NCBI GenBank assembly: GCA_002786855.1
Contig: PCUU01000026.1
Location: 55,698 to 119,697 of the forward strand
DNA from: Cytophagales bacterium CG12_big_fil_rev_8_21_14_0_65_40_12
Lineage (GTDB): Bacteria > Bacteroidota > Bacteroidia > Cytophagales > Cyclobacteriaceae
Length of the DNA stretch: 64,000 nucleotides
Reading direction: 5' to 3'
Position 1 is the stretch's first letter. The number at the start of each line of letters is the position of its first letter. Positions 36,364 through 40,403 of this stretch are shown here, one piece after another. Made by a program: the position numbers and the translations under genes. Under the pieces are notes generated by a model. That model had not been told where the DNA came from. It did not search any database and saw only the letters and a list, made by a program, of their open reading frames with translations.

Positions 36364-36645
36364 ATGATTACCCTTGAACAAGAGAATATAATTAAAAGAA
36401 CCCTCGACAAACTCAGTCCAAAAATGGTTGGAGTCTTTGGTTCATATGCTCGAAATGAACAGACGGTAGACAGTGATCTTGACTTACTTGTGGATTTCGA
36501 TGAGCAAATTAATTTACTCGACATTGTTGGTATAGAACAAGAACTAACAGAAATTCTTGGAATCAAGGTTGATCTGGTCAGTTATAGGTCGATGAGTGTG
36601 CATCTAAAACCCTTTATGGAAAAAGACCTTATTAGAATTATCTAG
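36364..36645 (+). CDS. MNT-type nucleotidyltransferase (MntA-like antitoxin)
   Basis: GSYARNEQTVDSDLDLLVDF. Confidence 0.9.
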   Translation: MITLEQENIIKRTLDKLSPKMVGVFGSYARNEQTVDSDLDLLVDFDEQINLLDIVGIEQELTEILGIKVDLVSYRSMSVHLKPFMEKDLIRII

Positions 36646-36647
36646 TT

Positions 36648-36998
36648 ATGAAAAACCAAATAGTGTATCTCAAGCATATTGAAGAGTGCATTACAAAAAT
36701 TATTAGATATACTTCTGAACTGACCCAAAATGAGTTTCTAGAAAATAGTTTGATTCAAGATGCAGTAATTAGAAACTTTGAAATCATCGGGGAGGCCACA
36801 AAAAAGCTCAATAGTGCGTTCAGATCAAAATATCCTAAAGTAGAATGGAAGAAAATTGCTGGAATGCGCGACAAACTTATTCATGACTACATTGGAGTAG
36901 ACTTGGGGGCCTTATGGGCGGTAGTCGAACAAATTATTCCAGATTTGAACGAGCAAATCAAAAGGATTATAAGAATAGAAGAAAACGAAAATGAATGA
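36648..36998 (+). CDS. HEPN-domain (DUF86/HepT-like) toxin
   Basis: [13 protein letters not shown] and [18 protein letters not shown] (RX4HxY); paired with upstream MNT gene. Confidence 0.9.
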
Positions 36999-39600: not shown

Positions 39601-39673
39601 ACAATCGTCTTGATCTCTTTAAATACGCTGGCTAAATAACTGAAAATCAGCAAAGCAGCTGCAATTACTTTCC

Positions 39674-40371
39674 TGTCGCAGGTTCTCCGAACCTGTGACC
39701 ATTTATTAAATAGGGACTCCGTCCCAATTAAACCAATTCAATGTTTACCAAACCCACTTCTCCAGCATATGCTCCTGCGCTTGAATAAACATAGTCTTCA
39801 GGACTAAAACATATACCCGCTCGCACTGGATTCATGTGGATATAATTGAGTCGTTCTTCAAACATGTTATTTCTATCTAGCGGAATAGGATGGTTTTCAT
39901 GTCTCCAAATCTTCATGTGAGTGTTGGAACTACTCATTTCTCCCTGGCTTTCAACAATCCAAAGCAGCCAATTCTTTCTACTTTCATGCTGATCTTGCTT
40001 CAAGGTCTCATAAATTACTTTGGCAGAATACCTCTTGAAATCTCTTATTACCGATGAGAGATTCTCGTTATTTCGAGTCCGAACGATCAAGTGAATGTGA
40101 TTTGACATGATTACATAAGCATGCACTATCAATCCTTTATTCTTGATACAAAAATTAAGGTTTTCAATAAGAATATCTCTGTAGCGCTGTCGATTGAAAA
40201 TGTCAATCCACTCTACGGATGTCATGGTAACGAAGTGTGGAATATCATTTTCAGAAAACCTGTAGGCGGTGCTCATTATTGAATATATCAACAAAGATTT
40301 TAAAACGTAATAGCTAAGCGGACAGAGTCCTTGAGATCATAGCAAGTCACAGGTTCGGAGAACCTGCGACA
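39674..40371. mobile_element. RAYT-REP element (~698 bp) with 26-bp perfect inverted terminal REP hairpins
   Basis: TGTCGCAGGTTCTCCGAACCTGTGAC at 39674-39699; exact reverse complement at 40346-40371; encloses a Y1 transposase gene. Confidence 0.85.
39728..40276 (-). CDS. REP-associated tyrosine transposase (RAYT / Y1_Tnp, TnpA_REP-like)
   Basis: HAYVIMSNHIHLIVRT (HUH motif), NYIHMNPVRAGI catalytic Tyr region; flanked by REPs; start MSTAYRFSEND. Confidence 0.92.
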   Translation of the reverse strand: MSTAYRFSENDIPHFVTMTSVEWIDIFNRQRYRDILIENLNFCIKNKGLIVHAYVIMSNHIHLIVRTRNNENLSSVIRDFKRYSAKVIYETLKQDQHESRKNWLLWIVESQGEMSSSNTHMKIWRHENHPIPLDRNNMFEERLNYIHMNPVRAGICFSPEDYVYSSAGAYAGEVGLVNIELV

Positions 40372-40403
40372 GTTGCCAAGTTCAGGGTAACTGCTTCACA
40401 ATA

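Follow-up and report, generated by a model that had tools for sequence, protein, structure and literature searches.

A Roseivirga RAYT gene bounded by an inverted pair of tip-matched double-hairpin REPs, with evidence for whole-unit insertion at related loci

The element described here lies in a 64-kb stretch of DNA (hereafter the window) from a marine bacterium of the genus Roseivirga, and is a minimal REPtron, consisting of one RAYT gene and one inverted pair of double-hairpin REPs. Each REP is an asymmetric double hairpin, in which a CT dinucleotide is followed by a long hairpin, a short linker and a shorter hairpin with the same tip. It is probable that the RAYT of this minimal Bacteroidota REPtron acts via the tip-matched double hairpins and occasionally moves the whole unit. 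The association of RAYT and REP is itself known. What appears to be new here is the tip-matched double hairpin together with the insertion of whole units with long duplications.

The original prediction, that the RAYT gene is bounded by a repeat and its exact reverse complement, was confirmed by a 27-bp perfect inverted repeat (39673-39699 and 40346-40372) with a spacing of 646 nt. When folded as single-stranded DNA, each end of the element formed an 11-bp hairpin with one G.T pair, also as predicted, and an inner hairpin (Table 1). The two ends had folding energies of -13.3 kcal/mol (z = -5.4) and -11.7 kcal/mol (z = -4.8), a stability that was not reached by any of 200 shuffled sequences. 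The inner hairpins had been located correctly, in a mirror arrangement, but they do not form a separate second pair. Hairpins 1 and 2 together constitute one REP unit of about 54 nt, which recurs elsewhere in the same genome and in six congeners. Within the 64-kb window, the core palindrome of the REPs had no further occurrence beyond the two ends of the element. The left REP sits between the ends of two convergent genes. The two neighbours of the element lie on opposite strands and, judged solely by their sequence motifs, are an RluA-like and a Gfo/Idh-like gene. Elsewhere in the window (36364-36998) there are two adjacent small genes which, judging by their sequence, resemble a toxin-antitoxin pair, namely an MntA/HepT-type nucleotidyltransferase and a partner-like gene.

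Table 1. Features of the RAYT-REP element in the window.
Feature	Position	Strand	Basis
Whole RAYT-REP unit, including the CT / AG at its outer edges	39673..40372		27-bp inverted repeat; homology to the G011 sister unit stops at the REP ends
CT preceding left hairpin 1 (putative site of cleavage)	39673..39674	+	CT-foot enrichment across loci; CT cleavage in E. coli and S. maltophilia TnpA_REP (PMC8266576)
Left REP hairpin 1, GTCG-CAGGTTC-TCC-GAACCTG-TGAC, 11 bp, G.T at pair 4	39675..39699	+	Inverted repeat, ssDNA folding, 16-copy alignment
Left REP hairpin 2, GGGAC-TCC-GTCCC (GGGACTCCGTCCC), CTCCG tip as in hairpin 1	39713..39725	+	Folding; conserved in 16-copy alignment
RAYT / TnpA_REP gene	39728..40276	-	NF047646 (97.4 bits), PF01797, homologue alignment, AlphaFold model
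Right REP hairpin 2, GGAC-TCT-GTCC on the minus strand (GGACAGAGTCC)	40320..40330	-	Sequence, folding
Right REP hairpin 1, perfect inverted copy of left hairpin 1	40346..40370	-	Inverted repeat, folding
CT at the 5' foot of right hairpin 1, read as AG on the plus strand	40371..40372	-	Sequence; CT-foot enrichment across loci

The open reading frame between the REPs matched the NCBIfam model REP_Tyr_transpos (NF047646) above its cut-off of 80 bits, as well as the Pfam family Y1_Tnp (PF01797). The frame is open from a TTG at 40294, but homologues point to the ATG at 40276 as the likely start. The protein carries the HUH motif NHIH and the Y motif YIHMNP, i.e. an HUH and Y1 core of the Y-x-x-NP type, and the residues H66, H68, Y151, N155 and P156 were invariant in an alignment with 27 homologues. 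The best match in the PDB of its AlphaFold model (pLDDT 90.6) was TnpA_REP of E. coli in complex with REP (4er8_A, E=4e-7). An insertion sequence of the IS200/IS605 type was ruled out, because the protein scored 28.9 bits against the NCBIfam IS200 model, below the cut-off of 55, and because it has the Y-NP motif, not the class-1 motif Y-x-x-x-Q. The number of RAYT copies per genome is one or a few, in contrast to that of an active insertion sequence. A search for carriage on plasmids gave only distant matches, in five records.

In the classification of Quentin et al. 2018 (PMC6006769), the RAYTs of Bacteroidota fall in subclass 2.6, and the structures beside them are termed "atypical secondary structures" and lack GT[AG]G. 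According to the accessible part of that paper, subclass 2.6, or Bertels group 5, shares with the window element the Bacteroidota host, a length of about 180 aa, the motifs NH[LIV]H and YIHxNP, and flanking hairpins without GT[AG]G that have copies elsewhere in the genome. The window protein has NHIH, which fits NH[LIV]H, and YIHMNP, which is one position off YIH[QN]NP; at the W-Q motif it has W-R, while most of its relatives have W-Q. The element has a Bacteroidota host and atypical flanking secondary structures with genomic copies, as expected for the subclass. On these sequence features, the window gene is probably a Bacteroidota RAYT (TnpA_REP) of subclass 2.6 / Bertels group 5. The classical REP with GT[AG]G (subclasses 2.2, 2.4, 2.5, 2.7 and 2.8) was rejected, since the foot in the window is GTCG. 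The CGTC-type REPs (PMC3733652) have a different motif, and were reported without any linked transposase.

The genome of the window (G000) contains nine copies of the REP with at most three mismatches, and hairpins 1 and 2 always co-occurred in the copies that were read. The layout is CT-GTCG-CAGGTTC-TCC-GAACCTG-TGAC, a linker of about 15 nt with TATGA or TATTA, and then GGAC-TCT-GTCC. An alignment of 16 copies showed compensatory changes in hairpin 1 and retention of the G.T pair at stem position 4 in all but one. A universal G.T pair at this position was dismissed, because it occurred in just 12 of the 81 RAYT loci with double hairpins described below; the pair is thus a trait of the window REP family. 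A covariance model at E<=0.01 detected the REP unit in 7 of the 19 Roseivirga genomes searched; the other 12 gave no match. At E<=1e-4 there were 121 places (5-29 per carrying genome), 95 of which were solo REPs. The genome-wide search for the hairpins that had been proposed therefore revealed dispersed, mostly solo copies. In close inverted pairs, hairpin 1 with its CT foot faced outward in 8 of 9 cases, as in the window element (two-sided p=0.04). Three of the genomes (G004, G006 and G014) hold REPs without any RAYT above about 45% identity to that of the window. Seventeen REP copies (in G000, G004, G006, G007, G011 and G014) span 72-74 nt; in the eight of them that were read, the tip of hairpin 1 contains an additional small hairpin (CTGCC-n-GGCAG), with a remnant of CTCCG mostly kept. 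In G004, a unit of about 230 bp, composed of inverted REPs with cargo, occurs twice, 1.2 kb apart, with unrelated flanks and homology that ends at the REPs. This unit behaves as a REPIN, in the sense of two inverted REPs mobile as one unit, although most copies of the family are solo.

Several further arrangements were observed. At two loci of the window's genome (L004 and L005, at G000:C90:7200 and 978), solo REPs are followed by a remnant resembling the 3' end of a RAYT; these loci are probably decayed full elements. They also have in common a repeat of about 250 nt rich in CCCCTAACCCC-like sequence. Two other loci (L001 and L009, on G000:C36 and C50) share about 75 bp downstream of the REP (CCCTTCCTGCGTCAGGGAAAG...), which belongs to a different repeat family. 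In G006, a REP of another family (GTCGCTTGGCTTTGCCGAGTGAC) lies at the 3' end of the Gfo/Idh gene (L048), and in G014 a REP of the window family, in the opposite orientation, lies at the 3' end of rluA (L065). Gene ends thus seem to be repeated landing spots. Among G004, G006 and G014, the intergenic regions were too rearranged for the presence or absence of solo REPs to be read.

The relationship between the two hairpins was analyzed in a survey of RAYT loci with one fixed detector, which called two neighbouring hairpins recurring in a locus and never used the sequence of the tips. Under this strict detector, a recurring double hairpin was found at 45 of 93, 31 of 59, 26 of 79 and 8 of 27 loci, i.e. 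about a third to half. Tip matching was scored as the agreement over the central 9 nt of the two hairpins, and partners shuffled between loci served as the control. In the first set (93 loci, 38 usable units), the tips agreed at 5.39 of 9 positions versus 3.90 after shuffling (sd 0.23), and the stem bases showed no agreement within a locus (1.66 of 8 versus 1.96). The tips agreed likewise in two independent sets, a replication set (23 units; 5.65 versus 3.76) and a set of named GTDB genomes (15 units; 5.6 versus 4.03), and here, too, the stem bases failed to match. A phylum-wide set pointed in the same direction without reaching significance, its five units being too few alone. Over all 81 loci of the four sets, the agreement was 5.56 of 9 versus 3.81 (sd 0.16). 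For example, L125 has the tip AAGCTTTCAGCTT in both hairpins, the tips of L144 are CGTTTGCAACG and CGTTTGTAACG, and those of L150 are AAGCGTCACGCTT and AAGCGTCTCGCTT.

A CT at or near the 5' foot of hairpin 1 was present in 39 of 66 loci versus 17.3 expected (p=2e-8), and in 9 of 15 versus 3.7 in the named GTDB set. On the side of hairpin 2, CT occurred in 14 of the same 66 loci, with no excess. Similarity of the tips was correlated with similarity of the RAYT proteins even below 60% identity (r=0.24 for hairpin 1 and r=0.19 for hairpin 2, both p=0.001, Mantel test), whereas similarity of the stem bases was not (r=0.02, p=0.27). Since the tips co-vary with the protein, the simplest reading is that these RAYTs would recognise the hairpin tips, with the same tip presented twice. 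The foot bases differ between families (GTCG in the window), while the tips and the 5' CT are conserved, and no universal foot tetranucleotide was found among the 81 loci. Recognition of a 5' foot tetranucleotide, which the original prediction had cited as established for RAYTs, therefore does not fit here. Double hairpins with a CT foot and matched tips (AGCTCTGCT / AGCTCGGCT) also accompany RAYTs only about 28-40% identical to that of the window (L156, L165, L174 and L227-L233), so that the layout may predate the subclass.

Mobility was analyzed by comparison of filled and empty sites. A sister unit was found in Roseivirga sp. OFTM338 (G011), the RAYT of which shows 74% protein identity to that of the window. 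The two units align from REP to REP and not beyond, and their surroundings are unrelated. The sister unit has a VOC-family gene on one side and a sensor kinase gene on the other, and lies directly upstream of a start codon. In G005, these two genes are found together without the unit; the RAYT is also missing at this site in G007 and in G009, where only a short stretch was readable. G005 has one copy of the kinase start region, whereas in G011 copies of it border the unit on either side over at least 31 bp at 90%, or about 45-50 bp if diverged edges are included. A second RAYT of the window's genome (L012, G000:C55:2324-2854), with its own REP array and the tips CGTTTGCAACG, is flanked by a 52-bp direct repeat (96%). 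The orthologous intergenic region showed no REP or RAYT in G014, G004, G013 and others, and in G006 it contains a REP array with no RAYT in the stretch read. By sequence comparison, insertion of a whole unit with target duplication is supported at these two loci.

Unique direct repeats other than hairpins flank 19 of 250 RAYT loci versus 2 of 400 control placements (p=8e-7; p=3e-4 with the 12 clear cases only), a count that is only indicative, since most control placements were drawn from the window and from Roseivirga loci, without matching by genome, and several of the 19 repeats are REP-related. At L204, the RAYT is flanked by a 26-bp perfect direct repeat of a gene 3' end. A search of wider flanks found a 94-bp perfect direct repeat at L121 and, at L288 in Flavobacterium, a repeat of coding sequence of about 259 bp (97%) on both sides of the RAYT. 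In two species of Flavobacterium (L288 and L276), one and the same RAYT insertion is found at the end of a coding sequence that resembles a transporter; the repeats have diverged in one of the two. Overall, the duplications are 24-259 bp long.

For the window copy, no target duplication was detected in either flank, and the proposed comparison with close relatives yielded no empty orthologous site, because the neighbouring rluA and gfo genes are not adjacent in them. The mobility of this copy itself is therefore unproven. The claim that the REP pair delimits a mobile unit held for the two-hairpin ends and for insertion in a close relative, but not for a duplication or an empty site at the window locus. 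The two outcomes named beforehand as contradicting it, hairpins confined to this locus or a segment fixed at its place in all relatives, were not what was found: the hairpins are dispersed, and the sister unit stands at another locus, which is empty in G005.

It is worth noting that there are other possible interpretations of these results. In intergenic regions rich in repeats, local tandem duplication together with unequal recombination might have produced the long direct repeats, which would then not be target duplications. REP arrays around some RAYTs do grow by tandem duplication, the lengths of the repeats vary widely, and their edges miss the exact REP. However, the empty sites corresponding to G011 and G000:C55 contain a single copy of the DNA that is duplicated there, the RAYTs of L204 and L288 each have coding sequence repeated on either side, and flanking repeats are enriched over the control. 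We consider this explanation somewhat unlikely.

It is less likely still that the RAYT is domesticated and spreads only REPs, its own gene unit being immobile and its presence or absence reflecting vertical loss and rearrangement. Nunvar et al. 2010 (PMC2817692) found no sign of IS-like mobility of RAYTs, the copies per genome are few, and the window locus gives no evidence of insertion. Against these points stand the two Roseivirga loci at which a filled site with flanking duplication could be compared with an empty one, the end of sister-unit homology at the REPs within unrelated surroundings, and the RAYT 3'-end remnants beside solo REPs at two other loci of the genome. The filled and empty Roseivirga sites speak against the idea that a REPtron does not move as a unit. 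Finally, the hairpins might be transcription terminators or mRNA-stabilising elements at gene 3' ends with the RAYT incidental, as the position of the left REP and the known effects of REPs on mRNA elsewhere would allow, but this is very improbable, since they have no T-run, are inverted copies of a dispersed family without common gene context, stand directly upstream of a start codon in G011 and have tips that follow the RAYT protein, and since the same hairpins have so far not been seen at the same genes in many relatives without a link to RAYT.

For the preferred reading, action via tip-matched double hairpins with occasional movement of the whole unit, we propose the following mechanism. 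A dimer of the HUH/Y1 RAYT would bind the two tip-matched hairpins of one REP on one strand, and the cut would fall at the CT just 5' of hairpin 1. Since the inverted REPs have CT feet that face outward, the cuts at the two 5' ends of the unit would fall on opposite strands. The target DNA would then receive the two ends at staggered positions on its opposite strands, and gap repair would leave a long target duplication of variable length. In most cases, what spreads would be a solo REP, or else two inverted REPs together with some cargo, and the whole RAYT unit would be moved occasionally. At G011, G000:C55 and other loci, 4-23 nt of unexplained sequence separates the duplications from the CT. 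Such joints are not predicted by this simple model, and it is possible that the duplications were produced by recombination or template switch. A more far-reaching and tentative reading, to which we give rather less than even weight, is that the RAYT units of Bacteroidota are genuine double-stranded transposons, in which tip-coded hairpin pairs direct opposite-strand cleavage at CT and long variable duplications result. If true, this would be unlike any IS200/IS605-type or RAYT element that we found described.

The element was compared with known systems. The accessible part of the paper on subclass 2.6 (PMC6006769) does not describe the double-hairpin layout, the matched tips, the CT foot or whole-unit insertion. 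For TnpA_REP of E. coli and S. maltophilia, strand-specific cleavage of single-stranded REP at CT has been shown (PMC8266576). As far as the available part of that work goes, the E. coli and Stenotrophomonas REPtrons (subclasses 2.2 and 2.5) have in common with the present element an HUH/Y1 enzyme amid its own strand-specific REPs and a CT next to the hairpin; they differ in their single hairpin and conserved GTAG foot, are described as not moving as a unit, and come with no report of target duplication. REPINs and BIMEs likewise consist of inverted REP pairs, which here have hairpin 1 facing outward; the differences are that most Roseivirga copies are solo and that each REP already has two hairpins. 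The IS200/IS605 elements (IS608 and ISDra2) share the fold of the window RAYT, and their two end hairpins are bound by a dimer. Unlike the RAYT units here, they have no terminal inverted repeats and no larger target duplication (PMC2817692), and their motif is Y-Q in place of Y-NP. The TIRYT of the TIRtron (PMC3733652) is a RAYT-like gene between long inverted repeats, which are, however, reported to be unrelated to REPs; these proteins belong mostly to subclass 2.1 and have an HTH tail. In the open-access literature, outside subscription papers and supplements, no description of double-hairpin, tip-matched REPs was found.

The present results bear on repeat recognition by RAYTs outside the GTAG groups, and on whether RAYT genes can move at all. 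The matched-tip double hairpin that co-varies with the protein offers a directly testable recognition code, in a family common across Bacteroidota. The filled and empty sites with long duplications provide concrete loci and substrates for biochemistry, and argue that at least the Roseivirga lineage is not fully domesticated.
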